Made by a program: the position numbers and the translations under genes. DNA of 64,000 nt from an uncultured Bacteroidota bacterium (GTDB lineage Bacteria > Bacteroidota > Bacteroidia > Chitinophagales > Chitinophagaceae): positions 1 to 64,000 of the forward strand of contig CAIYTT010000071.1 in the NCBI GenBank assembly GCA_903929195.1, in the 5' to 3' direction. Below, one piece after another: positions 2,525 through 33,021 of the stretch (position 1 is the first letter of the stretch; each line of letters opens with the position of its first letter). The notes under the pieces were generated by a model. The model did no database searches, was not told the origin of the DNA, and saw nothing but the letters and a program-made list of their open reading frames with translations.

Positions 2525-3322
2525 ATGCAAGATTATCATACAATACCGTTTGATTTAACTGATGGAGAGAATTCTCAAGCTTTTTTTGCTTACGATAACC
2601 CAAATACCTTAGTGATCTTTGTGCATGGGTTCAAAGGCTCTGCTATTGGTACCTGGAGTGATTTTCCGGAGGCCGTAGTTAATGAAGTTGATTTTTCAAA
2701 AGTGGATTTTATTTTCTACGGATATTCAACTCTAGAGGCTTCTGCTGCTTTTCATGCTGCTGCTTTTAAGAAATTTCTCGTAAAAACGATAGAACCTGTA
2801 AAGAATAATATCATTCCTGCCAGTCAGGGTTTGCAAGAAAGAAGTTATTCAAAAATAATTCTTGTTGCACATTCGCTTGGAGCTTTGATAGTCCGTCAGG
2901 CTATTATTTCTGCTTGTAAAAACAATTACGATTGGCTTAGTAAAGTATCTCTTTTATTATTTGCACCTGCACATACGGGGGCACGGGTGCAGAAGTTAGC
3001 TAAGGAAGTTTTATCAGGATGGGGTGCATTAATTCCGTCTATTGCAAAATATCAATATCCGGTTTATGAAGACCTTGAACCTGATTCTCAATTTATTAAA
3101 ACACTAATTGATGAAACAAAAAAGCTACTGGCTAATAACTATAAATGCAATATTGCTAAAAAGGTCGTCTGGGCAGAAAAAGACCGAGTCGTATCACAAA
3201 TCAATTTCTGTGATGACCCTGACCCTGAACTCATTTATAATAAAGGCCACATAAATGTTTGCAAACCAGATAGCGTCTATGTTAAACCGGTGGAAATATT
3301 AAAGGACGTTCTTAACAATTAG
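2525..3322 (+). CDS. Alpha/beta hydrolase (serine esterase-like), first gene of a putative defence operon
   Basis: A 265-aa serine hydrolase of the alpha/beta fold. The oxyanion strand VIFVHGFKG (about residues 30-38) and nucleophile elbow VAHSLGA (Ser near residue 117) are clear; a C-terminal His in KGHINVC could complete the triad with an upstream Asp. There is no signal peptide, so it should act in the cytoplasm. The gene ends 3 bp before the SNF2 helicase, which is itself coupled to the Hsp70-like gene, so the three form one operon. Related hydrolases sit beside NTPases in other bacterial conflict systems, where they are thought to act as effectors on lipids or other esters. The substrate is unknown. 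Confidence 0.85.
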   Translation: MQDYHTIPFDLTDGENSQAFFAYDNPNTLVIFVHGFKGSAIGTWSDFPEAVVNEVDFSKVDFIFYGYSTLEASAAFHAAAFKKFLVKTIEPVKNNIIPASQGLQERSYSKIILVAHSLGALIVRQAIISACKNNYDWLSKVSLLLFAPAHTGARVQKLAKEVLSGWGALIPSIAKYQYPVYEDLEPDSQFIKTLIDETKKLLANNYKCNIAKKVVWAEKDRVVSQINFCDDPDPELIYNKGHINVCKPDSVYVKPVEILKDVLNN

Positions 3323-3325
3323 TAT

Positions 3326-6300
3326 ATGGATAGTAAAATAAGAAATCTTGAATCATTATCGGCTGAATATAGGCATAAAGGAAATGCATTAAATGGATAC
3401 AACATCTTAAGTCATTTAATTGAGATTGGAGAAAATGACAAAATTAGCCATCTATTGCGAAACCATTTAGACGAATCAGTCGAATTGGATGAATTAAAGC
3501 AACGCTTTGAAATTGATGCTTTAATTGAATATTATAATTTGTGCTTTGTTGCGGCTCTTGCAGGTTTTATTGACCCTAATCTCAATGAACCGTTGCGGCT
3601 TGAAATTGTGAAAATTCTAAGTCATCCATCTGTAGTAAAATATTACACCAATTATTATCCTTACTTTTTAACCTCAATAACATTAAGGTATGCTACCAAC
3701 TGCAAGCAAATCGAGAAAAATACGGTAAAGGCTGAAACAGGATTATTTTATTCATTTTTAATGTTAAACAAAGAAATTAAAAATGATGATGATGTTGAGT
3801 GCTTTATGAACATGTTGGATTATGTCAATTATTCAGGCGACGGCATTAAAGAATTCATGAAGGTATTGAGAAGTAAAACAATGCTACCAGAGTTATTGCA
3901 AAAGAAAGAAAAATCGCCACTAACCAAATCTATTTGGGGTTTCTTTAAATACAGTGAATTTTTAAACAGTTTTAAAGAGTTATTAGAAAAAGCGAACGGC
4001 AATAAAATTTTGCAATCAGGATTTTGGCTCTATCACGGATACTATTTTGACCGAATTGGAAATAATGTAATAGAAATATTTACCGAAGGATTTGACCAAA
4101 TAGCGTTAAACATCGCTGATAATTTCCCGGAAATATTTCAAGAAATTGATGACGAAGGTGACATAATGACATCGGAGCAACAAAAACAAACTGCTATAGA
4201 AACATTGACTAGAACAAAACAAAATATAATGTTTGTTCTTAATAGTCATTTTAAAAATCCTTTATCAACATACTTTATCAAGATTAATAACCGAGGCAAG
4301 GCTCTTTTTAAAGTCGGCGATAGAATATCTTTAAAACGGAACATAAGTCAAAAAGGAAGAGTAGATTTTGTGCTTTCGCCACAGGGGGGGTACCAATTCT
4401 ATGACGTCATGTTTGATAATGGCAGATCACAAACTGTCCCAGAGAATGATTTGCTTCAAGAAGTCTTACTAGAATCGACTTGGGATTTACTTGCAAATAA
4501 CTCATTGAAAGATTATAGGTATTTTTCAATTGCAACAACAATTCATAAAGTACAGAATACAACTTCAAATACAATATCTACGCTAAAAGCATCAAGAACA
4601 GTTTTCAAACCCTACCAATACAAACCTCTTGTTAAGTTTTTAAAATCTGATTTGCGAAGGATTTTAATAGCAGATGAGGTAGGGTTAGGTAAGACAATTG
4701 AGGCAGGTCATGTAATGTTGGAGATGACCGCAAGAGGAAATTTACGGAATGCCTTAGTGATATGTACCAAAGCGTTAAGTGATAAATGGAAAAATGAGCT
4801 TCAAAATAAGTTCAATTTTATTTTCAAAAAGTACGAAAGCACAAGCGAGTTCATCCAGGATATAAGGAATGATGTTGCAGGATCTCGAAAAAGCATTTTG
4901 GGAATATTGAATTATGAAAAATGCAGGAATGAACAGCTGCAAAAAATAATTGAGGAAAACAATTATCATTTTGATTTGCTAATCTGCGATGAAGCTCATA
5001 AAATTAGAAATAGTGAAACTGCACAGCATAAGGGAATAGCAAAGATTGTTGACCAATCGGATGCTGTAATATTCATGACAGCTACTCCTATAATGACGGA
5101 CATTAAGAATCTTCATAGTCTTATTCGTGTAATAGATCGGCAAGGATATGATACTTTCGATATATTCAACAATGCAGTTAATCAGAATCGTCCGTTTATT
5201 AAAGCCTTATCACAATTAAACGAAAATATAAAGCCACTACATGAAATAGCTGACCAACTGCAAAACACTAAGGTCGTCCAGCAAATGACAGCCGACGAAG
5301 AAGTTTACAGTAGAACAGAACCAACAATAGGAGAACTATTTAAGAATGACGCGTTATATAATCGTGCGATGGAAATAATGCGTACGGGAAATAAAATCGT
5401 TGAAAACAGAGTGAAGATTCAGCAGGATTTGATAGAATTAAATTCACTCAACCACATCTATACCAGAACACGAAAGAAGGATGTACTTACAGGTAGAGAT
5501 ATAGTCAAAAGAATGCCTCATACATACTCAATTGACCTTACGGACGAAGAACAGTTTGTATACGATGCTGTAATAAATGAATATAGCGACCCGAATAGTT
5601 TGGGATTAATTCAAAGGAAACGGCAAATGTCGAGTTGTATTGTAGCCTTTAGAACTCCAAAAGAAGAATTGGAAAATGGAAGGTATAATATGGATTTGGT
5701 GGATTCGAAATTCAATATGTTCAGAAACATAATTAACGAAGTGGTGATCAAAGGGAATAAGAAATTAATTGTTTTTGCTTTTTTCACTAATACATTGTTA
5801 TATCTAAAAATAAAATTAAACGAATTAGGCATAGAATCTGAAATTATTTACGGTTCAATTCAAAATAGAACGGAAAGAATAGAAAGGTTTCAGCATGAGG
5901 AAAAAGTGAAGGTGCTATTGTCATCTGAAGTCGGAAGTGAAGGTATTGACCTGCAATTTTGCGATGCTTTAGTGAATTATGATTTACCTTGGAATCCAAT
6001 GGTTGTTGAACAAAGAATCGGGCGAATTGATCGAGTAGGCCAGAAATCGGAATTAATAAACATTTACAATCTCATAATCAATAACACCATTGAAAGCAGA
6101 ATTTACACAAGATTATACGAAAGAATAAATCTCTTTAAAGAATCTATTGGAGATTTAGAAGAAATACTTGGTGAAAAGGAAGATATTCTTAATATAGAAA
6201 AACTTATAGAGAATATATATCGAACTGAACTTACGGTAGAAGAAGAAAATAAGAAACTCGACCAAGGGGCTCTAGCATTAGAAACAGAAAAACAGTACTT

Positions 6301-7321
6301 AGAGAAAGTTCAAACAGAATTACAGTCTGCGTTTGCAAATGATCTCCATTTTAAAAATGAAATAGACAGTATAATAAACAATCACCGATACATTACAAAG
6401 GAGGAAATCATAAAGTATTTAGAAAGTATTATTAGTGAAGAACTTAGTTCGATACAAATAAATCATGTCAATGAAAATATTTCCGAACTATTAATTCCAT
6501 CAAATAGTAAACTGTTACTTTTCGATTTTATAGAAAAATATAAGGACTCGGCAACAACTAATCCTGAAATTGAAAATATATATAAGAAGTTCAAATCGAA
6601 TTATTTTGGCGCAAAAACAATTTCGTTTACGTTTAATCAAGAGTATGCTTTTGAAAATAAAAAAGTTGAATATATTTCCGCATTCCATCCATTAATTAAT
6701 GCTATTACGAACTATTTTCAAAAAAGTGGGTTTGAAAAAAATCAAGCACATAAAATTGCACTCGAAAGAGACTTACTTGCTAAAGAGAAACAAATATCGG
6801 CAGGGTTCTATATCCTAGTCATATACAATATCAGTGTGATGAAGGAATTTGGAGATGGGAGAAAGAATCAATTACATTTTCTACAATCTGCGCTTGCAGA
6901 TATTAATGGAGAAAATATCGAATTATTAGATACCGAAATTAGCGATCATGTATTCGGAATGGTCCAGCTTTATGGAGAAAAATTCCAAACTGATTTCCCT
7001 TTGGATAAACAATTTGTTGATGAGGTAAGGCCATTCTTTGCTGTGAAAATTTATACGAATGAGCAATCAATAAAAGAGGACGAGGAGATTAAATTCTTAT
7101 CTGGAATTAGACGAAGAGCTGAACAAGAATTAAATTACATTGATAAAAGATTAGAGAGAATAGAAGGACAACTGATTGAGAAAAAAGGTATTGAAGCGAT
7201 ATTAAAAAAGGAAATCGAGAATTTAAATTTAAAAAAAGAACAACTTATTTTTAACGAAAAAAACGCCAAAATTGAAACCAATCAATCGTTAATTTCTATC
7301 AATTTACTGCAAATATTATGA
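3326..7321 (+). CDS. Large SNF2/RapA-type helicase-like ATPase
   Basis: A 1331-aa superfamily 2 ATPase. About 330 N-terminal residues have no recognised domain; a short SH3/Tudor-like segment (about 335-385) follows, then the SNF2 core: motif I ADEVGLGKT (about 449), motif II DEAHK (about 554), motif III TATP (about 585), motif V/VI SSEVGSEGIDLQ and QRIGRIDRVGQ (about 875-910). The last 400 residues are largely helical, with a predicted coiled coil near the end. This layout resembles RapA and the DISARM DrmD protein. It probably translocates on or remodels DNA-protein complexes. The stop codon overlaps the next start (ATGA), tying it to the Hsp70-like protein. No DISARM methylase, DrmA or DrmB is nearby. 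Confidence 0.9.
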   Translation: MDSKIRNLESLSAEYRHKGNALNGYNILSHLIEIGENDKISHLLRNHLDESVELDELKQRFEIDALIEYYNLCFVAALAGFIDPNLNEPLRLEIVKILSHPSVVKYYTNYYPYFLTSITLRYATNCKQIEKNTVKAETGLFYSFLMLNKEIKNDDDVECFMNMLDYVNYSGDGIKEFMKVLRSKTMLPELLQKKEKSPLTKSIWGFFKYSEFLNSFKELLEKANGNKILQSGFWLYHGYYFDRIGNNVIEIFTEGFDQIALNIADNFPEIFQEIDDEGDIMTSEQQKQTAIETLTRTKQNIMFVLNSHFKNPLSTYFIKINNRGKALFKVGDRISLKRNISQKGRVDFVLSPQGGYQFYDVMFDNGRSQTVPENDLLQEVLLESTWDLLANNSLKDYRYFSIATTIHKVQNTTSNTISTLKASRTVFKPYQYKPLVKFLKSDLRRILIADEVGLGKTIEAGHVMLEMTARGNLRNALVICTKALSDKWKNELQNKFNFIFKKYESTSEFIQDIRNDVAGSRKSILGILNYEKCRNEQLQKIIEENNYHFDLLICDEAHKIRNSETAQHKGIAKIVDQSDAVIFMTATPIMTDIKNLHSLIRVIDRQGYDTFDIFNNAVNQNRPFIKALSQLNENIKPLHEIADQLQNTKVVQQMTADEEVYSRTEPTIGELFKNDALYNRAMEIMRTGNKIVENRVKIQQDLIELNSLNHIYTRTRKKDVLTGRDIVKRMPHTYSIDLTDEEQFVYDAVINEYSDPNSLGLIQRKRQMSSCIVAFRTPKEELENGRYNMDLVDSKFNMFRNIINEVVIKGNKKLIVFAFFTNTLLYLKIKLNELGIESEIIYGSIQNRTERIERFQHEEKVKVLLSSEVGSEGIDLQFCDALVNYDLPWNPMVVEQRIGRIDRVGQKSELINIYNLIINNTIESRIYTRLYERINLFKESIGDLEEILGEKEDILNIEKLIENIYRTELTVEEENKKLDQGALALETEKQYLEKVQTELQSAFANDLHFKNEIDSIINNHRYITKEEIIKYLESIISEELSSIQINHVNENISELLIPSNSKLLLFDFIEKYKDSATTNPEIENIYKKFKSNYFGAKTISFTFNQEYAFENKKVEYISAFHPLINAITNYFQKSGFEKNQAHKIALERDLLAKEKQISAGFYILVIYNISVMKEFGDGRKNQLHFLQSALADINGENIELLDTEISDHVFGMVQLYGEKFQTDFPLDKQFVDEVRPFFAVKIYTNEQSIKEDEEIKFLSGIRRRAEQELNYIDKRLERIEGQLIEKKGIEAILKKEIENLNLKKEQLIFNEKNAKIETNQSLISINLLQIL

Positions 7322-8784
7322 AAACATATCACATTGGCCTTGATTTCGGAACTTATCAAAGTAAAGCCTGTGTGTATGATGTTGACAAGAACGAACATGA
7401 ATTTTTTAGGTTTCCATCCAATCAATCATTCTTTCTTCCATCGAGAGTAGCAGAAAAAAATGATGGGTGTTTTGAATATGGAAATGATAAAACGAGATTA
7501 CCTCGAAAAGAATATCATTACTTTAAGATTGCAGCGGCAGAGGATGATGAATTTATTTCTGAAACTTATGGAAACTCAAGCATAACATCTAGTTTTTATA
7601 AATTTAATGAGTATAATGATTGTAGTCCTGAATTTTTATCAGTGATATATTTGACTTATTTGCTGTTTACAATTAAGGAAAGTTATCAATCACAGAACAA
7701 TAAAAAAGTTCCCGGCACCGGGCTGATCGGGCGGCTTTTATCTCGTCAAAACGAAGAAAATAGCTCAAAGTTTACGATCCAAATGGGCATTCCTACAGAA
7801 TGGTCTCAGGAGAAAAATCTATTCAGAAAAAGAAAATTTGAAAACATTTTGCTTCTAGCAGAAGTGCTTCAAAAAAAATATAAAAATCTAGCCTATTTTT
7901 TACATGTTCCCAAGAGCCAGTTAATTAAGGACATAAAGGAAATTTACGAGTCAAATTCCTATGATTTCGATTCAAAGGAGGAATTTGATGCAAAACTCAA
8001 TGATTTAGGAATATCTGTTTATCCAGAGACCGCTGCAGGGTTATATTTCATTCTTGAGACTAAACAGTTACGTCCAGGATATTATGCAATTATGGACATA
8101 GGAGGAGGAAGTACCGAATTATCCTTTTTTCGAATTATTGAGAAAAATAAGATTGCCTACCTAGCGTCTGAATCATATATGATGGCTGCAAATAATGTCT
8201 ATGCGGAATATGCCAATAACGAACATTCAATTTCGGCTTTCAGAACGGCAGAACAAGAAATCAAAGAATCAATCAAAAAAAATGATTGGGATAAAAACAA
8301 TAGCATTGTTGACGCATTAAGCAAAGTGGATAAGAAGTTAGATCAAATCGTTTATAAGCTATTTCATAAGAGGGTTTATTTTTTCAGCCAAGGAATGGTA
8401 AAAAAATACCAAGACCAACCGATAATACTTTATGGTGGCGGGTCTTTGTTGCCATTATTGAATGTTGGAAATATAATGATACATGATAATGGAAACAAAA
8501 GTAGTCTGTCGATTCCTATTACATCAATAGTGAAGGAGAAAATAGATAAATATACTGAAATTGTCAATTTATTGCCGCGAGATAAATCATGGAAAAATGA
8601 TTTTACTATGCTTGTAGTCGCTTTAGGACTATCTTATATAAAATCCAATTCAAACGCTATTTGGTTAAAAGAATATCATGCAATTGATGGTGATATAGAC
8701 ACAGCAAACAATCGCCTAGTTCCCCATCCCGTAAATGAGGGTATGTATATTTTTGATGTACTAAATTCAAAATGGAATAGATGA
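7318..8784 (+). CDS. Hsp70/actin-fold ATPase-like protein
   Basis: A 488-aa protein with the nucleotide-binding signature of the Hsp70/actin superfamily: phosphate-1 loop GLDFGTYQSK (about residues 7-16), phosphate-2 motif MDIGGGSTE (about 258-266) and adenosine motif LYGGGSLLPL (about 370-379). It lacks the beta-sandwich substrate domain of DnaK, so it is an Hsp70-like ATPase rather than a chaperone proper. It starts in an ATGA overlap with the helicase gene. Together with the hydrolase it suggests a sensor/regulator ATPase, a DNA-acting motor and an enzyme effector. The family call is firm; the role is inference. Confidence 0.87.
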   Translation: MKTYHIGLDFGTYQSKACVYDVDKNEHEFFRFPSNQSFFLPSRVAEKNDGCFEYGNDKTRLPRKEYHYFKIAAAEDDEFISETYGNSSITSSFYKFNEYNDCSPEFLSVIYLTYLLFTIKESYQSQNNKKVPGTGLIGRLLSRQNEENSSKFTIQMGIPTEWSQEKNLFRKRKFENILLLAEVLQKKYKNLAYFLHVPKSQLIKDIKEIYESNSYDFDSKEEFDAKLNDLGISVYPETAAGLYFILETKQLRPGYYAIMDIGGGSTELSFFRIIEKNKIAYLASESYMMAANNVYAEYANNEHSISAFRTAEQEIKESIKKNDWDKNNSIVDALSKVDKKLDQIVYKLFHKRVYFFSQGMVKKYQDQPIILYGGGSLLPLLNVGNIMIHDNGNKSSLSIPITSIVKEKIDKYTEIVNLLPRDKSWKNDFTMLVVALGLSYIKSNSNAIWLKEYHAIDGDIDTANNRLVPHPVNEGMYIFDVLNSKWNR

Positions 8785-23965: not shown

Positions 23966-24976
23966 TCATTGATCCTTCTTCTTACTCTGGGATTTAGGGA
24001 AATTCTTGGCAATATAATTTTTCATAGTACCGGCTCCTAATCCCAATGCTTTTTCGGCTTTTAAAATTGTACCATATTCTTTGATTGCCCATTTTCTTAC
24101 TTGAATTCTAAATTGGGCATTCAGATCAAGCATAGAAAAACCACGCTGAATTTGGAATTGGCTTAACTCGTTACCAGAATTGTTATGCAGTTGTGTTTTG
24201 CTAAAAAAATCATCTTTTATATCTTTTACAATTTGCTTTTCTATACTTTCTGATAGTTTTTTAGTCTCTCGATAATGTAAAATACGGTAGTTAAAATACA
24301 TGCAAGCCAATTTGTCCAAATCACGAAACCCGCCTTGAAATTTAGATACATTATCTTCAAGAAATTTTTGCAAATCGGTGTTTTTGGGGGCATTTGCAAA
24401 ATGTTCAAAGCCCATTGTCTTTTGAAAACTCATTTTATCCCAAGTCGCATAAAAATCTTTTATTACATTATCCTCATCACTAAAGGAAGGAAATACAATT
24501 ACTAATTGGCTAATTCTATCCCAAAAATAACCTTGCAATTGGTTTTTATCTTCACGAAGTGCTTCGATATCCATTGAAGATGTAAAAACAACACGTAAGT
24601 TGGTTTTTTTACTTATTCCAAAAGTTCCATCAGTAGTTGAAAGTCCCTTAAATAGTAAAAATTGTTGCTCCTCTGTAAGATTTTCGACATCTTCTACCAC
24701 AATTGTTTGGTAACTATGTTCATTGAATAAGTCATCTATTTCACCCTCCTTGGTTGGGAAATTTGACGAAGAAATAAACTCTAATTTCCCTAAGCATAAT
24801 TCTTTATTTGCATTTGAATTTATCTGAGCAAAAGCCTGTTCAATTGCAAAATGTTTACCCGTGCCACGTGACCCAAGGACGATTAAGCAGAACTTTCCTG
24901 GATTTGCAAGAAATACTTTCAATTTATTAAAAGCCAAAATCCTTTTTACACCTCCATTAAATGCTAATTCACTCAT
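23966..24976 (-). CDS. NtrC-like AAA ATPase without the sigma-54 loop
   Basis: 336 aa. Walker A GSRGTGKH (35-42), Walker B TIVVEDVE (91-98) and an arginine-rich DRISQLVI region (about 153-160) follow the plan of sigma-54 activator AAA domains. The GAFTGA loop that touches sigma-54 is not visible. The C-terminal tail (EYGTILKAEKALGLGAG) looks like a Fis-type helix-turn-helix. It is divergent from, and shares about 100 bp of upstream DNA with, the radical-SAM operon. It may be that operon's regulator or a working partner. Convergent with the DUF45 gene. Confidence 0.78.
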   Translation of the reverse strand: MSELAFNGGVKRILAFNKLKVFLANPGKFCLIVLGSRGTGKHFAIEQAFAQINSNANKELCLGKLEFISSSNFPTKEGEIDDLFNEHSYQTIVVEDVENLTEEQQFLLFKGLSTTDGTFGISKKTNLRVVFTSSMDIEALREDKNQLQGYFWDRISQLVIVFPSFSDEDNVIKDFYATWDKMSFQKTMGFEHFANAPKNTDLQKFLEDNVSKFQGGFRDLDKLACMYFNYRILHYRETKKLSESIEKQIVKDIKDDFFSKTQLHNNSGNELSQFQIQRGFSMLDLNAQFRIQVRKWAIKEYGTILKAEKALGLGAGTMKNYIAKNFPKSQSKKKDQ

Positions 24977-25082
24977 TTATATTGTCAATTATTTACCAAA
25001 TATAGGGGGAAATATTTCACCATGCCCAAAGTGCATTCCTTTATTTTTCACATTTGCTATAGTTAATAAATGCCATACAAAT

Positions 25083-25382
25083 ATGCAAAACCAAATTTTG
25101 GAATTTTACTTAACGCACCATTTTATGCTTCAGGGTTGGGATAGAAGCATTGATAAGGCAATGCTGTATAAAGTCTTGCCTTATGTTTCAGCCAGTAAAG
25201 AAGGCAAAAAACTTGCAATAGTAATGCCGTCATTCCTTTCTCAAAAAGGAATACCGCCGAAAGAAGAAAAGTGTTTAGTAATTGTACTCCTACAAAATCT
25301 ACTAAAAACAGCTTACTGGTGCGACCATCCCAACTATTTATTCAAAAAAGAAAAACAATCAGAATTTCAAATCATATACTAA
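25083..25382 (+). CDS. Small hypothetical protein leading the radical-SAM operon
   Basis: 99 aa, starting at ATG 25083. A longer frame from 24861 would overlap the divergent AAA gene and is rejected. The stop overlaps the start of the glycosyltransferase/radical-SAM gene (TAATG), so the two are coupled. It holds a hydrophobic C-terminal helix (CLVIVLLQNLLKTAYW) and two Cys. No family is recognised. It might be a substrate or partner of the fusion enzyme, which is inference from position alone. Confidence 0.6.
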   Translation: MQNQILEFYLTHHFMLQGWDRSIDKAMLYKVLPYVSASKEGKKLAIVMPSFLSQKGIPPKEEKCLVIVLLQNLLKTAYWCDHPNYLFKKEKQSEFQIIY

Positions 25383-27685
25383 TGCACATACTAAAAATCA
25401 TACATGGCTACCCACCAAATTACAATGCTGGCTCAGAAGTTTACAGCCAATCCGTTTGCAACGAACTTTCTAAACGGCATCAGGTATCCATATTTACACG
25501 AGAAGAAAACCCTTATTCACCTGATTTTGGAATCAGGCATGAAAAACAGAATGATCAACTTGATTTATTCTTTGTAAATAATCCGCAGGGCAAAGATGGA
25601 TACCGGCATAAACAAATTGATGAAAACTTTGCCGCACTCATTAGAGAGTTAAAGCCGGACATTGCTCATATCGGGCATCTCAACCACCTCTCAACCGGAA
25701 TTGTAGATGAACTCAACCGATATAAAATTCCAATCGTTTTCACTTTGCATGACTTTTGGCTGATGTGTCCAAGAGGACAATTTTTAACTCGCAACATTGG
25801 GCAAGAAAATAATTTTCAATTATGTTCAGGACAACAAAATTCCAAATGTGCGACGGACTGCTACAAGGTATATTTCAGTGGCAAGGAAGAAAATATACGG
25901 CAGGATATTGAACAATGGAGTAATTGGGTTCACCAAAGAATGATCGAAACGAAAACCATAATTGATAAAGTGGATTTATTCATAGCCCCATCAAACTACT
26001 TGCGCAATCGTTTTATCAACGATTTTTCTATTCCGAGTAACAAAATTATTTATTTGGATTATGGTTTTCCAACAGAATATTTGACACTATCAAAGCAATC
26101 AAAAAAGGAAAGGAATTTTACGTTCGGCTATATCGGCACTCATATTCCGGCAAAAGGGATTAACCAACTCATTGAAGCATTTAAGCAAATAGAAGAACCA
26201 GCTACCCTAAAAATATATGGCAGGAATAATGGACAAAGTACAGATGCTTTAAAACAGATGGCTGCAACCGCTAAAAACAAAATTGAATTTGCCGGAGAAT
26301 ATATCAACCACAACATGGCAAATGATGTTTTTTCTCATGTTGATTGTATTGTAGTCCCATCAATATGGGTTGAAAATTCCCCGCTTGTAATACATGAGGC
26401 CCAGGCTTGCAATATTCCGGTTATAACAGCAAATTTTGGAGGAATGGCCGAGTATGTTCAGCATAAAGTAAATGGGCTTTTGTTTGAACACAGGAATAAA
26501 AATTCTTTGGCTGAACAAATGAAGTTTGCCCTGAATAACCCTGAATTATTAAAACGCTATGGCGAAAGAGGCTATTTATTAGCCGAGAACGGAAATGTAC
26601 CGACTATTTATGACCATTGTAGTGAATTACTAAACATTTACCAATCATTGATTGCTCCGAAAAGCTTCTGGAGAATCACAATTGATACCAATCCTGAAGA
26701 TTGCAATTTGAAATGCATAATGTGCGAAGAACACAGCCCTTATAGCGATTTCATACCGACACTATTCAAAGAAACAGGTGTTAAACGCAGAAGAATGGAA
26801 TTTAGGATTGTCGAAGATATTTTTCTACAAGCAGAAAAATTAGGTGTAAAAGAAATAATTCCATCTACAATGGGAGAACCCTTGCTCTACAAAGAGTTTG
26901 ACAAAATATTTACTATCGCAAGAACAAAGAATATAAAAATTAACCTTACTACCAATGGGACATTCCCTAAGAAAACTGTTACAGAATGGGCAGAATTAAT
27001 TGTACCCAACACAACCGATGTAAAGATTAGTTGGAACGGGGCAACTAAAGAAACCGCAGAAAAGGTGATGCTTGGCATTGACTTTGAAAAGGCTATTGAA
27101 AATGTGAGGGAATTTATCAAATACCGGGATGAACACTTTGCAAATACAGGCTATTTCTGCCGGGTAACATTTCAGTTGACGTTCATGCAAAACAATATGC
27201 ACGAATTGGCTGATATAGTAAAATTGGCTGCATCGCTTGGTGTTGACAGGGTTAAAGGTCATCAGCTTTGGGCACACTTTGATGAAATAAAAAACCTTTC
27301 AATGAAGACATCAACTGAGAGTATAAATAGTTGGAATTTGTTTGTTCAGCAGGCATACGATGCTCAAGAGAAATACAGGAAACCTAACGGCGAAAAAGTG
27401 ATTTTGGAAAACGTTACACCTCTTACCTGTAATGAAAATAAAGCAGTACCGGATGAGTACGAATGTCCGTTCCTAAATAAAGAACTATGGATCTCTGCAA
27501 CCGGAAAAATATCTCCCTGCTGCGCACCTGACAATCTAAGGAAGTCATTAGGCGATTTTGGCAATATTAATGAAACAACCATAGAAGATGTATTGCGAAG
27601 TACCGCCTACAAGGAACTCGCAAAAAACTATAAATCAAAACCGCTTTGTATGACATGTAATATGCGCAAGCCATTTTCAAAGTAA
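25382..27685 (+). CDS. Fusion of GT4 glycosyltransferase and radical-SAM/SPASM enzyme
   Basis: 767 aa. Residues 1 to about 410 form a GT-B glycosyltransferase: N-terminal IIHGYPPNYNAGSEVYS, and sugar-nucleotide site VENSPLVIHEAQACNIPV followed by GGMAEYVQ. Residues about 425 onward form a radical-SAM barrel with the [4Fe-4S] motif CNLKCIMC (about 441-448). A SPASM-like tail has CCAPDN and CMTCNMR. ATG 25382 is chosen; the longer frame from 25271 only adds sequence overlapping the upstream gene. Combining sugar transfer and radical chemistry in one chain suggests two steps on the same substrate, perhaps a peptide or saccharide. The product is unknown. Confidence 0.9.
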   Translation: MHILKIIHGYPPNYNAGSEVYSQSVCNELSKRHQVSIFTREENPYSPDFGIRHEKQNDQLDLFFVNNPQGKDGYRHKQIDENFAALIRELKPDIAHIGHLNHLSTGIVDELNRYKIPIVFTLHDFWLMCPRGQFLTRNIGQENNFQLCSGQQNSKCATDCYKVYFSGKEENIRQDIEQWSNWVHQRMIETKTIIDKVDLFIAPSNYLRNRFINDFSIPSNKIIYLDYGFPTEYLTLSKQSKKERNFTFGYIGTHIPAKGINQLIEAFKQIEEPATLKIYGRNNGQSTDALKQMAATAKNKIEFAGEYINHNMANDVFSHVDCIVVPSIWVENSPLVIHEAQACNIPVITANFGGMAEYVQHKVNGLLFEHRNKNSLAEQMKFALNNPELLKRYGERGYLLAENGNVPTIYDHCSELLNIYQSLIAPKSFWRITIDTNPEDCNLKCIMCEEHSPYSDFIPTLFKETGVKRRRMEFRIVEDIFLQAEKLGVKEIIPSTMGEPLLYKEFDKIFTIARTKNIKINLTTNGTFPKKTVTEWAELIVPNTTDVKISWNGATKETAEKVMLGIDFEKAIENVREFIKYRDEHFANTGYFCRVTFQLTFMQNNMHELADIVKLAASLGVDRVKGHQLWAHFDEIKNLSMKTSTESINSWNLFVQQAYDAQEKYRKPNGEKVILENVTPLTCNENKAVPDEYECPFLNKELWISATGKISPCCAPDNLRKSLGDFGNINETTIEDVLRSTAYKELAKNYKSKPLCMTCNMRKPFSK

Positions 27686-27722
27686 AAAGCTGAATCCATT
27701 ATTCAAAAATTTTAAAAAATAA

Positions 27723-29150
27723 ATGAAACAGATAAAAACGATTGACCAGCTAAGAAGCACAATACCTGCCATTGAGGGCATTGAAGTTGCATTATTGTAT
27801 GGATCATTTGGCAGGAAGGAAGCAACTCCAAATTCAGATATTGATATTCAGCTTTTGGTAAATGATGATTTTGAGGCAGTTACTTTGATTGATCAACTTC
27901 ATAGGGTGTTTGCGGAAGAAATTCAATACATCATAGAGGTTGCCATGAGAAATAAAGTGGTTGCTTATTTTAAACATCAACCTAAAATCGAATTTGCGAT
28001 TTGTACCAACCTTTCAGAAATTAATCGGAATTATCTTGGTTCGGAAATTACAAATATTGAGGAAACAGTTCTTTATGAAAAGCAACCTGCAAGGCACGAT
28101 ATTATATGTTACTTGCATCGTATTGTCAAAGAGCATAAAGAGAACTGTAAGTCAAACGTAAAGATGATTGCTGATTTAACCGACAAATTTGTTTACGAAT
28201 TTGAAAGCTGTTCTTGTATGCATAGAAGAAGTGACGGTTACCAATTTTATTTTTTTTACAATATTGCTTTACAAATTGCTATTCAATTAAATCACCTTTC
28301 CAAAGGATACACCAAGTTCAATTTCCTTCCTAAGTATTTTATTGCAAATGTTTTAACCAAAGAAGAACAAGAAATTTTTTATGAGCTGAAGGGTACGTTG
28401 TTTTTGCCTGATGCTAACCAGCAGAAGAGAAAATTGCTTGATTTCTTTTATTCAGCTCTCAAAACACTGGTTACGCCTGAAAACCTGAATGACACCAAAA
28501 AGTTTTGTGAATGGATTTACAATAGAGATTTCCTTTGGAATTTTAGAGATATAAGTACACACAACGCTAAAATAAAAAGTGGCAGAATTTTTAGAACGGC
28601 TACTATGACATTATTTCAGGATGAAGATAGATTTAACGAATTGCTCAAGGAAAAGAACATCAAAACTGTAATTGATTTAAGAGCAGACAAGGAAATTGAT
28701 GAAAAACCATACTCAGAGCAAACCCTGACCAAATTCAAATACATAAAAGCACAGCTTGACCCGTGGAACCAACCAGATTGGTTTAAACAAAATCATAATC
28801 AGGGGACAAATGAAGAAATTGCTTACCGCTTTTTTGCTATTGGGTGCAATGATAAAATCAAACACGCTTTAGAAGCAATTATTGATGAAGACAGCGGTTC
28901 GGTTGCTATCCATTGTTTTGCCGGAAAAGACAGAACGGGAATCTTTATATCAATTTTACATTTGCTTGTGGACACTCCAAAGGAACTTATTTACGCCGAC
29001 TATTTAGCAAGTGAAGTTGATGTAAGCCTTCCCCGATTAAACTTAGTTCTTGACATAATAAGTAATAGCGGTGGAATTGAGCCTTATTTAATTTCTTGTG
29101 GAATATCTGAACACCAAATTTCAAAACTCAAACACAAATTATTGAACTAA
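27723..29150 (+). CDS. Fusion of MNT-type nucleotidyltransferase and tyrosine phosphatase
   Basis: 475 aa. The N-terminus is a minimal nucleotidyltransferase: LLYGSFGRKE (GS near 26-27) and NSDIDIQLL (Asp pair near 39-41). A helical middle segment follows (about 150-260). The C-terminal third is a tyrosine phosphatase: FRTATMT and IKTVIDLRADKE, then the P-loop IHCFAGKDRTG (nucleophile Cys near residue 398). Opposing activities (adding a nucleotide and removing phosphate) in one chain fit a modification/reversal or nucleotide-signal module. It starts 37 bp after the radical-SAM gene and overlaps the WG-repeat gene (TAATG). Confidence 0.88.
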   Translation: MKQIKTIDQLRSTIPAIEGIEVALLYGSFGRKEATPNSDIDIQLLVNDDFEAVTLIDQLHRVFAEEIQYIIEVAMRNKVVAYFKHQPKIEFAICTNLSEINRNYLGSEITNIEETVLYEKQPARHDIICYLHRIVKEHKENCKSNVKMIADLTDKFVYEFESCSCMHRRSDGYQFYFFYNIALQIAIQLNHLSKGYTKFNFLPKYFIANVLTKEEQEIFYELKGTLFLPDANQQKRKLLDFFYSALKTLVTPENLNDTKKFCEWIYNRDFLWNFRDISTHNAKIKSGRIFRTATMTLFQDEDRFNELLKEKNIKTVIDLRADKEIDEKPYSEQTLTKFKYIKAQLDPWNQPDWFKQNHNQGTNEEIAYRFFAIGCNDKIKHALEAIIDEDSGSVAIHCFAGKDRTGIFISILHLLVDTPKELIYADYLASEVDVSLPRLNLVLDIISNSGGIEPYLISCGISEHQISKLKHKLLN

Positions 29151-29851
29151 TGAATTGGCAAGACATAAAAGTATCGGCAGATAACACGCACTATATATTT
29201 AACGACCAACCCATCTTGGGCAAATTTTTTAGTGAGGTATTAAAATTTCATGCTCCAGGTATCGCTCCAGTAAAGGATATCACCGGAGCATACCACATTG
29301 ATAGTTACGGCAATCCATTATATATTGACAGGTATCAACGGACTTTCGGGTATTACTGCAATAGGGCAGCCGTCGTAAAAAATGGGAATTGGTTGCATCT
29401 GAATGAAAAGGGCGAACATGCATATTCAAATGTATTTTCTTGGGCTGGCAATTATCAGGAAAATATCTGTACTGTTCGTGATGAGAAGAATAGATACTTT
29501 CATATTGACCTACACGGTATTAAAATATACACAGAATACTATGTGTATTGTGGCGACTTTAAAGACGGATATGCATGTGTAAAGCAGAGCAGCGGGCTAT
29601 GGTGTCACATAGATATCAACGGCAATAGGCTTAATAGAATGGATTTTTTAGATTTGGGCATTTTCCATAAGAATTATGCAACCGCTATGGATAGTATCGG
29701 TTGGTATCACATAGATAAAGCAGGGAAAGAGTTATATAAGCAACGCTATTTAGCTGTTGAACCATTTTACAATGGCTGTGCCTTGGCAACGAAGTTCGAT
29801 TATCAGAAAGCTTTAGTTAATGAATTTGGTAATGAAATATTAGGGGTGTAA
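29150..29851 (+). CDS. WG-repeat protein
   Basis: 233 aa made of about six related 25-35-residue units of the WG/KWG type, each with a pattern like G-x-WLHLNEKG, YFHIDLHG, LWCHIDINGN, GWYHIDKAGK. Such beta-rich repeats act as binding surfaces in many bacterial proteins. No signal peptide is seen, so it is probably cytoplasmic. It is coupled to the nucleotidyltransferase/phosphatase gene by a TAATG overlap and is the last gene of the operon. It may recognise the substrate or a trigger; that is inference. Confidence 0.82.
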   Translation: MNWQDIKVSADNTHYIFNDQPILGKFFSEVLKFHAPGIAPVKDITGAYHIDSYGNPLYIDRYQRTFGYYCNRAAVVKNGNWLHLNEKGEHAYSNVFSWAGNYQENICTVRDEKNRYFHIDLHGIKIYTEYYVYCGDFKDGYACVKQSSGLWCHIDINGNRLNRMDFLDLGIFHKNYATAMDSIGWYHIDKAGKELYKQRYLAVEPFYNGCALATKFDYQKALVNEFGNEILGV

Positions 29852-29932: not shown

Positions 29933-30694
29933 TTAACCATTGCCTGTTTTGTATAGCCGGATAGGTTTGTCAAACTCCCTACTATCGCTGTATGATTTAC
30001 AGCTTTGTATCCTGTTAAGAGAACGGTAGAAATGCTCAATAACTACATTTGCCAACGCTCTCCCCAAAATGGAAATAAGGATACCATTTATTGTAAAACT
30101 ATTCATTTTAAACCAACGACCGTCAATTTTAATGTAATAATTTTCAGCGTCCTGAAAAGCTACTAAACCTGATTTGATTTTCTTTTGTACACCAAATTCC
30201 ATTGAATCCGGTACGAACTTTTTCATAGATAACCCTTTTTGAAAGCTATCAAAAGTATCGTTAAGAGAACCCCTAATTTCAAGCTTTGTTCTATTTTTAG
30301 TTAGTCTCGATATCGGCTTGAAAATCCTTATCAATTGCTTTTCTATCTCACGGCTCCTTTTCTTCCTACTATTGTTTATTATATGGAAGTTGTCATAGAT
30401 TTTTTTAAATTCGACATGATCCACCCTTGTCAGTATACAACTAAGCATAGCTTTTCCAATAAATGGGAACACGTCATCAAGGTCGCTTTTCTTTACTGTC
30501 GCAACAGTAATTTTGGGCTTGTCTTTTGCAGGCGTATTTTTAGATATGTGAAGGTTAATTTCAGTATCATTATTACCATTAAACGCTACTGTTACATGAA
30601 CTTTGTCAGGCAGGTCTTTACTCCCGAATGTGATAAAATTAGGTGTTACTTTGAACCAAAATAGATCACAGGAAAAACTATTAATAAATGCTTC
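29933..30694 (-). CDS. Hypothetical protein
   Basis: About 253 aa, no recognised domain. The N-terminal half looks beta-rich; the middle is basic and helical (NSRKKRSREIEKQ). The frame opens at 30718, but a TAnnTTTG box (TAGATTTG on the minus strand, 30716-30723) overlaps that ATG, so the second Met (MEAFINSF, 30694) is the likely start. It is convergent with the WG-repeat operon and its product is unlike its neighbours. Its role is unknown. Confidence 0.6.
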   Translation of the reverse strand, partial: EAFINSFSCDLFWFKVTPNFITFGSKDLPDKVHVTVAFNGNNDTEINLHISKNTPAKDKPKITVATVKKSDLDDVFPFIGKAMLSCILTRVDHVEFKKIYDNFHIINNSRKKRSREIEKQLIRIFKPISRLTKNRTKLEIRGSLNDTFDSFQKGLSMKKFVPDSMEFGVQKKIKSGLVAFQDAENYYIKIDGRWFKMNSFTINGILISILGRALANVVIEHFYRSLNRIQSCKSYSDSREFDKPIRLYKTGNG

Positions 30695-30715
30695 CATAAT
30701 TAAAATTGCATAGGA

Positions 30716-30723
30716 CAAATCTA
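30716..30723 (-). promoter_or_regulatory. -7 element TAGATTTG
   Basis: Matches TAnnTTTG on the minus strand, about 21 bp before the ATG at 30694. It argues against the longer reading frame. Confidence 0.45.
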
Positions 30724-31186: not shown

Positions 31187-32467
31187 ATGTTCATATCAAA
31201 TATTAAGCTTTGGAATTTTAGAAAGTTTGGAACTGATGTTGAAATGACGACAGATAGCTTACCAAACTTAGATTTAAACCTAAATAAGGGTTTAAATGTT
31301 GTTATCGGTGAAAATGATTCCGGTAAAACTGCGATTATTGATGCTATTAAACTTGTACTGAAAACACATAGCTATGATTATATCAAAGTTGATGAAAAGG
31401 ACTTTTATAATGACACTTCTCGTTTTAGAATTGAATTGAATTTTAAAGGTTTAATTGCTGATGAAGCAAAAAATTTTACTGAATGGTTGGGTTGGGAAGG
31501 AACTGGAGAGGCTGCGAAGCCAGTCCTAAGAGTTATTTATGATGTTAAAAGACAAGGAAAAAAAATTTTGCCAAGCGATGTGAAAGCTGGTATTGATAAT
31601 GATGGATACCAACTTACTGCCGAAGCAAAGGAATATCTAAAAGCTACTTATTTAAAACCTCTTCGTGATGCTGAAAACGAGTTAATAGCAAAAAGAAATT
31701 CAAGGCTTTCCCAAATACTTTTAGGTGATTCTGCTTTTAAAGGAAAAGAAAAAGACCATGAATTGGTAAAAATATTTGAAGGGCTAAGAGGAAATCTAAA
31801 AAAATATTTTAAAGGCGAATTTGAAATTACAACAATTGTTGAAGGAGAAGAACCGCAAGTTTTCAGACCTCAAGATGGAAAAATAATTAAGGATAAAATA
31901 GATGGTTACATCAAAACATTTTATGGCAATGACTATGAAACTGAATTTGAAGCCGCATCAAATGACATAAAAAGTATTCTCGAAAAACTAACCCTTTCAC
32001 TACAAAACGAGCCAAATCCGGGATTAGGAACACTAAATAGACTTTTTATGGCTGCTGAACTTCTGCACTTAAATAAAAGCAATTGGAGTGGTATTAGATT
32101 AGGCTTAATTGAAGAGTTGGAAGCGCACCTTCACCCACAGGCACAAATGCAGGTGATTGAATCCTTTCAAAAACAAGAAACTATTCAATTAATATTAACA
32201 ACCCATAGCCCAAATTTAGCATCAAAACTTAAACTTGAAAATTTAATTATCTGTAACAATGGAAAAGTTTATCCTATGGGGGCTAATTATACCAAACTTG
32301 GAGGGGATGATTATAAATTTTTAGAAAAATTTCTTGATGTTACAAAAGCAAATTTATTTTTTGCTAAGGGCATTTTATTGGTCGAAGGTTGGGCTGAGGA
32401 GATATTAATTTCAAGTATTGCTAAAAATATTGGAATCAATCTAACGAAATGGGTATTTCGATTGTAA
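31187..32467 (+). CDS. gajA: OLD-family endonuclease, N-terminal part (Gabija GajA-like, frameshifted)
   Basis: 426 aa. An ABC-type ATPase domain with Walker A IGENDSGKTA (about 39-48), signature-like stretch and Walker B LGLIEELEAHLHPQ with a following TTHSP is followed by the first Toprim strand ILLVEGWAEE (about 395). The frame ends 10 codons later at 32467. The rest of the Toprim domain continues in another frame from 32449. Adding one G to the GGG run near 32452-32455 would join them. In Gabija, GajA is the nicking nuclease that partners the UvrD-like GajB, which follows here. Confidence 0.8.
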   Translation: MFISNIKLWNFRKFGTDVEMTTDSLPNLDLNLNKGLNVVIGENDSGKTAIIDAIKLVLKTHSYDYIKVDEKDFYNDTSRFRIELNFKGLIADEAKNFTEWLGWEGTGEAAKPVLRVIYDVKRQGKKILPSDVKAGIDNDGYQLTAEAKEYLKATYLKPLRDAENELIAKRNSRLSQILLGDSAFKGKEKDHELVKIFEGLRGNLKKYFKGEFEITTIVEGEEPQVFRPQDGKIIKDKIDGYIKTFYGNDYETEFEAASNDIKSILEKLTLSLQNEPNPGLGTLNRLFMAAELLHLNKSNWSGIRLGLIEELEAHLHPQAQMQVIESFQKQETIQLILTTHSPNLASKLKLENLIICNNGKVYPMGANYTKLGGDDYKFLEKFLDVTKANLFFAKGILLVEGWAEEILISSIAKNIGINLTKWVFRL

Positions 32468-33021
32468 ATGTTGGCAACTTGGCTTTTACTAAGTATGCAA
32501 ATATTTTCCTTCGTAAAGCATTGCCAGACATGATTATACCAATTGCAATTTTGACTGATTCAGATGTTAGAGAATATCAATTATCGCAAACCGCAGAAGG
32601 AAATAAAATTTATTTAAAAGGAGATACAGATACAATTAACACTGAAACACAGCAAAAGATAATGGCTTTAAGAGCAAAATCAGAAAAAAATGTTCAGTAT
32701 TTTATTGCTCCAAATTGGACTTTAGAATACAGTTTATTTAAATCTGTCAGCCTAACACAAACGTTTCAAACAGTAGTCAAATCAATTCATACCGGAACTG
32801 ATTGGGATACGGACTTTGAAAAAGAACTTGCCAAAAAATTAATAAACAAGGTTTTAGATAAAACCGAAATTGCCTATCAAATTGCAAATGCAATAGATAA
32901 AGATTTATCAGAGGTAGAGAAAGGAATGAAAGTAAACAAGGAGATTATTATTAACGCTAACAATGAAGATGATTCAATAAACTATTTGGTAAAAGCTATT
33001 CGTTATGCCGCAGGCAATTAA
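32449..33021 (+). CDS. gajA: OLD-family endonuclease, C-terminal Toprim part (frameshifted)
   Basis: 190 aa continuing the Toprim fold of the upstream ORF: GISIVNVGNLAF then IAILTDSDVREY, which supplies the DxD metal-binding pair. It overlaps the N-terminal part by 19 bp in a different frame. An ATG at 32449 could in principle allow separate translation by re-initiation. Without this part the N-terminal product has no complete nuclease site. It overlaps the helicase gene by 17 bp. Confidence 0.72.
   Translation: MGISIVNVGNLAFTKYANIFLRKALPDMIIPIAILTDSDVREYQLSQTAEGNKIYLKGDTDTINTETQQKIMALRAKSEKNVQYFIAPNWTLEYSLFKSVSLTQTFQTVVKSIHTGTDWDTDFEKELAKKLINKVLDKTEIAYQIANAIDKDLSEVEKGMKVNKEIIINANNEDDSINYLVKAIRYAAGN

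Follow-up and report, generated by a model that had tools for sequence, protein, structure and literature searches.

The window analysed here is a stretch of 64,000 nucleotides (nt) from an uncultured bacterium of the Chitinophagaceae (contig CAIYTT010000071.1), whose positions 23966-29851 hold a set of five genes with intact catalytic motifs: a divergent AAA regulator, a protein of 99 amino acids (aa) that we call small99, a fusion of a GT4 glycosyltransferase with a radical SAM enzyme, a fusion of an MNT nucleotidyltransferase with a tyrosine phosphatase (PTP), and a WG-repeat protein. These five genes and their domains had been proposed by a reading of the sequence alone, which is borne out by the coordinates and the Pfam matches. 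It had also described TAATG overlaps as tying most of the genes; this is true of two of the three junctions, small99/GT4 (25380-25384) and nucleotidyltransferase-PTP/WG (29148-29152), but not of the GT4-radical SAM/nucleotidyltransferase junction, which is a 37-nt gap. Gene-neighbourhood analysis revealed a repeated order of divergent regulator, small protein, GT4-radical SAM, nucleotidyltransferase-PTP, an optional tailoring gene and WG. Since this order is conserved in many Bacteroidota loci, the gene set is not due to chance.

Distribution and exchange of the gene set

About 30 related loci were found overall, nearly all of them in Bacteroidota, and the genome scan for the nucleotidyltransferase-PTP fusion returned 18 loci, all titled Bacteroidota. 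A search anchored on the WG protein covered 249 genomes of the order and placed the family in 13, whose matches (E <=1e-43) stand clearly apart from all others; two of the 13 (L074 and L075) hold WG remnants only. Across the phylum the operon is patchy: of 396 genomes, no more than 1 or 2, the window's own among them, match the nucleotidyltransferase-PTP or the GT4-radical SAM fusion. The constant core consists of GT4, radical SAM and WG, and it is found in Bacteroidota, two viral contigs, Arsenophonus plasmids and phage WO. The remaining modules are swapped around it: the fewest changes on the GT4-radical SAM tree amount to five for phosphatase type, six each for the nucleotidyltransferase and the regulator type, ten for the tailoring gene and two for the split or fused state.

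The two viral contigs were recovered with the GT4-radical SAM query. One of them, which is GC-rich, carries the GT4-radical SAM fusion and WG only (L043:7863-11080), the smallest version seen, and in the other, a phage, the operon is cargo flanked by an endolysin gene and a tyrosine integrase (L044:6566-12618), with an unfused PTP and both of the peptide types described below. Tyrosine integrases lie near L019, L027, L044 and L069. Together with the phage cargo, these nearby integrases make the mobility of the operon well supported.

Core enzymes and interchangeable modules

The GT4 domain occupies residues 1-425 of the 767 of the fusion (25382..26656, plus strand; Pfam Glycos_transf_1/Glyco_transf_4), and its motif E331-x7-E339 is invariant among relatives (alignment A4). 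It is followed by a radical SAM domain with one auxiliary cluster (26657..27685, plus strand; Pfam Radical_SAM 4e-14, SPASM 6e-11), in which the CxxxCxxC cysteines C441, C445 and C448 and the auxiliary cluster cysteines C695, C713, C756 and C759 are invariant (A4 and A6). The sequence-only reading had named a radical SAM/SPASM enzyme. Both Pfam matches agree with this, but a full seven-cysteine SPASM domain with two auxiliary clusters is not present: the invariant auxiliary cysteines are C270, C288, C289, C331 and C334 only (A6 numbering), and they fit a single cluster in BtrN-like twitch spacing (C270-x17-C288, C331-x2-C334). BtrN is a cyclitol dehydrogenase of the sugar/cyclitol type, and because the cluster spacing likens the window enzyme to it, a sugar-type substrate is favoured. 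Profile matches of the radical SAM domain range across maturases and MoaA/PqqE types, and none comes near its cut-off. L013, L030, L044, L072, L073 and the Arsenophonus plasmids encode GT4 and radical SAM as separate genes; in the other loci the two are fused.

The MNT/Pol-beta nucleotidyltransferase domain (27723..28517, plus strand; Pfam Polbeta 5e-8, NTP_transf_2) has the motif GSFGR...SDxD, with G27, S28, R31, S38, D39 and D41 invariant among aligned relatives. The PTP domain fused to it (28518..29150, plus strand; Pfam Y_phosphatase3 2.7e-32) has the active site HCxAGKDRTG and belongs to the LipA/PtpB type, as judged by the HCxxGKDRTG pattern and 113 bits against a cut-off of 22.2; H397, C398 and R404 are invariant among relatives and the nearest solved structure is of PTPB type. 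This whole protein is replaceable. PTP alone stands in its place in the phage contig L044, and an unrelated histidine phosphatase in L037, L042, L066, L067, L069 and L071. L072 and L073 encode a shorter protein instead, in which a histidine-phosphatase motif (RHA/RHG) was recognised by eye. Every Bacteroidota operon seen complete has one phosphatase, of either the PTP or the His_Phos fold. Because unrelated phosphatase folds swap while GT4, radical SAM and WG stay, dephosphorylation, and not nucleotidyl transfer, appears to be the needed step; that it is integral to the Bacteroidota form of the operon is the conclusion we draw most firmly. The nucleotidyltransferase and its fusion are dispensable and absent from many sibling loci, and for this reason we rejected the nucleotidyltransferase as the defining enzyme. 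A profile search of viral contigs with the nucleotidyltransferase-PTP fusion found no operon, and plasmid and phage matches to it were discarded as relatives, given that only the common PTP half matched. A partial second nucleotidyltransferase domain, apparently a remnant of duplication, lies directly upstream of the fusion at L024:356-832 and L070:9815-10291.

Both fusions had been thought unusual. They are indeed present, but the GT4-radical SAM fusion is not unusual within the family, having been noted before in Wolbachia as UC3 of phage WO (PMC9203015), and the nucleotidyltransferase-PTP fusion is one phosphatase module among several that can replace each other. The idea of a unique fusion pair was rejected accordingly.

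The WG-repeat protein (29150..29851, plus strand; Pfam WG_beta_rep 6.6e-8) is the constant partner of the GT4-radical SAM enzyme, with 42-85% identity across Bacteroidota, Arsenophonus and Wolbachia phage WO (alignment A7). No relative of known structure was found for it. Some loci have optional, swapped tailoring genes for an O-methyltransferase (PF00891) or a carbamoyltransferase (PF02543/PF16861). The phage WO and Arsenophonus versions join WG and an O-methyltransferase in one protein, and therefore WG works with tailoring.

Regulators, small proteins and genomic setting

The divergent regulator of the window (23966..24976, minus strand; 336 aa) is an AAA+/helix-turn-helix (HTH) protein derived from bacterial enhancer-binding proteins. 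It matches Pfam Sigma54_activ_2 (1.8e-5) and the PADLOC model RtcR_PspF1 CARF_AAA_HTH (1.7e-16 over residues 18-323). Its Walker A motif GSRGTGKH is kept and the segment of the GAFTGA loop is missing from the alignment with sibling regulators, which agrees with the NtrC-like AAA ATPase without GAFTGA described earlier. A GAFTGA-like loop is present or near-intact in L014, L018, L021, L025, L029, L067 and L071. Long regulators (584-623 aa) of the RtcR_PspF type occur in L014, L021, L025, L029, L067 and L071, an assignment made by PADLOC for two scanned regulators (E 3e-70 and 1e-75) and via alignment or BLAST for the others. The model of a long-regulator N-terminus (predicted local distance difference test, pLDDT, 71) has its best fold matches, with modest scores, among the CARF proteins Csm6, ring nuclease, Can2 and Cam1. 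Such a CARF-like N-terminus is found in the long siblings, and the window regulator, which begins at the AAA domain, has none.

The type of regulator is paired with the type of promoter. The element TGGYAY lies 39-60 nt before the first gene in 7/7 loci with a GAFTGA-like loop (in L067 at about 50 nt, read by eye) and in 0/10 loop-less loci (Fisher estimate 5e-5, uncorrected for kinship). The -12 half of these promoters is degenerate, so to judge by their sequence they are sigma54-like and not proven sigma54 elements; sigma54 is encoded in 10/10 genomes checked, that of the window included. The upstream region of the window has no TGGYAY sigma54-like element and no canonical -24/-12 promoter, and comparison of upstream regions points to CACATTTG (25049..25056, plus strand), which resembles the Bacteroidota -7 element. 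The window regulator, having lost the sigma54 loop, probably acts at an ordinary promoter. The GT4-radical SAM protein of L014 is 98% identical to that of the window, yet the regulator and the upstream region differ, from which it follows that control has been exchanged while the rest of the operon stayed nearly identical. Beside the regulator start lies an operator-like imperfect palindrome TTGTCAATTATTTACCAA (24982..24999, no strand assigned). It is part of a block, TTGTCAATTATTTACCAAATATAGGG...AAATATTT (24982-25025), that is conserved upstream of the window-type regulators of L015, L020, L069 and partly L019, and that is probably an autoregulatory operator.

Small99 (25083..25382, plus strand) has a predicted alpha/beta fold (AlphaFold pLDDT 75) and relatives in sibling loci that are 44-95% identical. 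It, or a distant family of similar size, precedes GT4 in many loci, but small99 is not a universal part. It has no Pfam match and its model has no PDB fold match, and the suggestion of a DUF4258/RelE-like toxin was dropped on these grounds. Basic peptides of 31-48 aa are found directly upstream of GT4 in L013, L017, L025, L028, L029, L030, L037, L042, L044 and L066, and in L067 and L073 such a peptide was recognised by shape. Type I reads ...ADIKNPNKGTxGTNxTYDKNQGNRGKQLNPNQ... and type II ...TGKPSGGGRGNN...; neither occurs in the window locus or elsewhere in its genome. In most pairs synonymous codon changes are about equal to or above non-synonymous ones, which points to purifying selection on the coding sequence. 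Type I and the operon occur together in 6 genomes against 0.6 expected (P 2e-6, uncorrected for kinship). The type I family is also found beside a viperin-CMP kinase gene, an MntA/HepT-Fic cluster and Fic genes, all without GT4-radical SAM (L090:253-396, minus; L086:6968-7192, plus; L088:7295-7441, plus; L038:7930-8076, minus). Since they adjoin Fic genes, a pair resembling MntA/HepT and a true viperin, these peptides seem to be accessories to conflict-type genes in general.

The operon was said to lie between defence modules, and it does: type I restriction-modification and YgjP genes flank it upstream, with a DrmD-like helicase further left, and Gabija lies downstream. The neighbours of other siblings include integrase, AbiE-like, DUF262-like and methylase genes (read by eye) and an HKD/SNF2 helicase. 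A defence role is suggestive, and the conflict role proposed earlier is plausible. No set of PADLOC families fits the window operon, to which there are partial domain matches only, and no such operon appears in the excerpted text of the conflict-systems paper PMC7159879. Of the surrounding genes, Gabija GajA is spread over two reading frames that overlap (31187-32467 and 32449-33021), the first covering positions 1-413 of 622 of the GajA profile, and may thus be frameshifted or contain an assembly error. An alpha/beta hydrolase-like gene, the DrmD-like SNF2 helicase (1331 aa) and an Hsp70-like gene stand in a row at 2525-8784, possibly as another defence module. A 261-aa reading frame without a significant family match lies between WG and Gabija (29933-30718, minus strand).

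Interpretation and known relatives

Considering the gene set and its conservation, the swapping of modules, the pairing of regulators with promoters and the core common with phage WO, we give about even odds (0.5) to the operon being a regulated, mobile biosynthetic cassette of a GT4-radical SAM-WG family that makes a tailored glycoside; it would be inducible and serve in conflict or host interaction. The class of the product is our weakest inference. In such a pathway the GT4 domain would transfer a sugar from a nucleotide sugar to a small, probably phosphorylated acceptor, and the radical SAM domain with its BtrN-like cluster would then oxidise, epimerise or otherwise edit the sugar or the aglycone, while the WG protein would bind or present the intermediate to tailoring enzymes. 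The product would be capped in relatives by an O-methyltransferase, in some of them fused to WG, or by a TobZ/NodU-type carbamoyltransferase, and the phosphatase, PTP in the window and histidine phosphatase elsewhere, would remove a phosphate late. By analogy with self-protecting aminoglycoside pathways, the nucleotidyltransferase fused to PTP may attach an AMP-type mask that can be taken off again. Expression would be controlled by the divergent AAA regulator, which in siblings often appears to be a CARF-sensing sigma54-type activator. The earlier suggestion that this chemistry makes or edits a modified signal holds insofar as a co-directional enzyme set would make or tailor a molecule, but of the set that it described, the nucleotidyltransferase and its fusion are dispensable and small99 is not universal. 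We only tentatively extend the proposal to a pathway triggered by infection or stress, in which a CARF sensor, or a reduced regulator descended from one, would switch on a cassette that phages and defence islands carry, the masked glycoside being freed by the phosphatase. If this were true, with the same core chemistry in the Wolbachia cluster, one product class would join bacterial immunity and insect symbiosis.

Several observations weigh against the glycoside cassette. The similarity of the radical SAM domain to BtrN (E 1e-3) and SuiB (E 9e-6) is too weak to fix the substrate class; small99 has no role in the model; the peptides that precede GT4 in roughly half of the loci find no explanation in a pure small-molecule pathway; and in the versions of phage WO and Arsenophonus no phosphatase was recognised. 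Nor is defence use general, as several siblings adjoin housekeeping genes, L013 for example at infC/thrS. The peptides might instead be substrates, as ribosomally synthesised and post-translationally modified peptides are: radical SAM/GT4 would act on the type I or type II peptide or on small99, and the other enzymes would decorate it further. The position, codon conservation and co-occurrence of the peptides agree with this, as do the peptide maturases, e.g. SuiB and PqqE, among the nearest radical SAM models and structures. It is nevertheless unlikely, given that the window genome and about half of the operons lack a peptide, that type I is no private substrate, as its other neighbourhoods indicate, that the peptide sequence is too invariable for a typical core peptide, and that a twitch-like cluster and O-methyl, carbamoyl and phosphatase tailoring are commoner for small molecules.

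Decoration of a surface glycan, exopolysaccharide (EPS) or lipopolysaccharide (LPS), seems quite unlikely. GT4 enzymes are common in surface glycan pathways, phage WO has UDP-glucose dehydrogenase and epimerase neighbours, and genes of its Undecim Cluster are assigned to EPS/LPS, methylation and export (PMC9203015); that EPS/LPS assignment, however, comes from annotation only, the glycosyltransferase is single and of soluble type, and inside the Bacteroidota operons there is no flippase, polymerase or second glycosyltransferase. Very unlikely, in our opinion, is a nucleotide signal or toxin-antitoxin type of system in which the nucleotidyltransferase and the phosphatase would write and erase a nucleotide mark on protein or RNA. 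The low-score likeness of the nucleotidyltransferase to the MntA antitoxin (29 bits) and HalB (19 bits), the defence-island position and the CARF regulators of siblings would suit it, but the nucleotidyltransferase is missing from the histidine-phosphatase operons, L044 and L043, no HEPN toxin partner is present and no PADLOC system fits.

Compared with known systems, the operon resembles each only in part. The window nucleotidyltransferase has the minimal fold and motif in common with the type VII toxin-antitoxin MntA/HepT, but it is fused to PTP, has no HEPN partner gene and scores 29 bits against a family cut-off of 60. The regulators of L014, L021, L025, L029, L067 and L071 match RtcR_PspF1 or close relatives and have a CARF-like N-terminus, as RtcR does, whereas the GT4-radical SAM operons have no rtcAB and the window regulator has neither CARF nor GAFTGA. 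The CARF domain of RtcR is not oligoadenylate-driven in the system studied (PMC9650030). If our reading of the regulators is true, CARF sensing would here govern biosynthesis rather than nucleases or RNA repair. Aminoglycoside pathways combine GT4 enzymes, carbamoyl and methyl tailoring and phosphate masking, and BtrN is likewise a radical SAM enzyme with one auxiliary cluster of the same cysteine spacing; the operon, however, has no aminocyclitol genes, and sequence similarity to BtrN is, as said, weak. The Arsenophonus plasmid cluster (CP132904, CP132908) has GT4, radical SAM (about 50% identical) and WG-O-methyltransferase in the same order, but GT4 and radical SAM are separate, SHMT-like, PhyH and threonine aldolase genes are added, and there is no phosphatase or regulator.

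The only named relative found for the cassette is the Undecim Cluster of phage WO. Bordenstein and Bordenstein describe eleven genes (WD0611-WD0621) with UC3 as a glycosyltransferase/radical SAM fusion and functions (EPS/LPS, methylation, export) assigned from annotation and homology; the excerpted text mentions neither WG nor Bacteroidota operons (PMC9203015). The window fusion is 49% identical to the phage WO protein over residues 1-765 (tblastn) and matches phrog_21308 over residues 1-764 (E 4e-196), so GT4 and radical SAM are homologous over their full length and in the same order. The next phage WO gene matches WG residues 4-228 at 42% and continues with a part matching the Arsenophonus WG-O-methyltransferase protein (WG is 42-45% identical to both; A7), and the nearby WG is thus of the same family. 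In the phage WO cluster WG follows the fusion directly, and the cluster, like the cassette family, is carried by a mobile element. Of the eleven genes the window shares GT4-radical SAM and WG only. Both the phage WO version and that of Arsenophonus have an NAD-epimerase and a PhyH oxygenase in addition, and phage WO also has an ABC exporter, UDP-glucose dehydrogenase, GlmU-like protein, threonine aldolases and MFS and DMT transporters, whereas epimerase, PhyH, transporters and aldolases are absent next to the window operon; the Undecim Cluster in turn is without phosphatase, nucleotidyltransferase, small99 and AAA regulator. The comparison makes the WG protein recognisable as the constant partner of the glycosyltransferase/radical SAM enzyme, and the modular swapping of regulators and phosphatases gives direct handles on the function of the pathway. 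An unexplained island of the phage of a major insect symbiont is in this way tied to free-living Bacteroidota, where the core is open to genetics.

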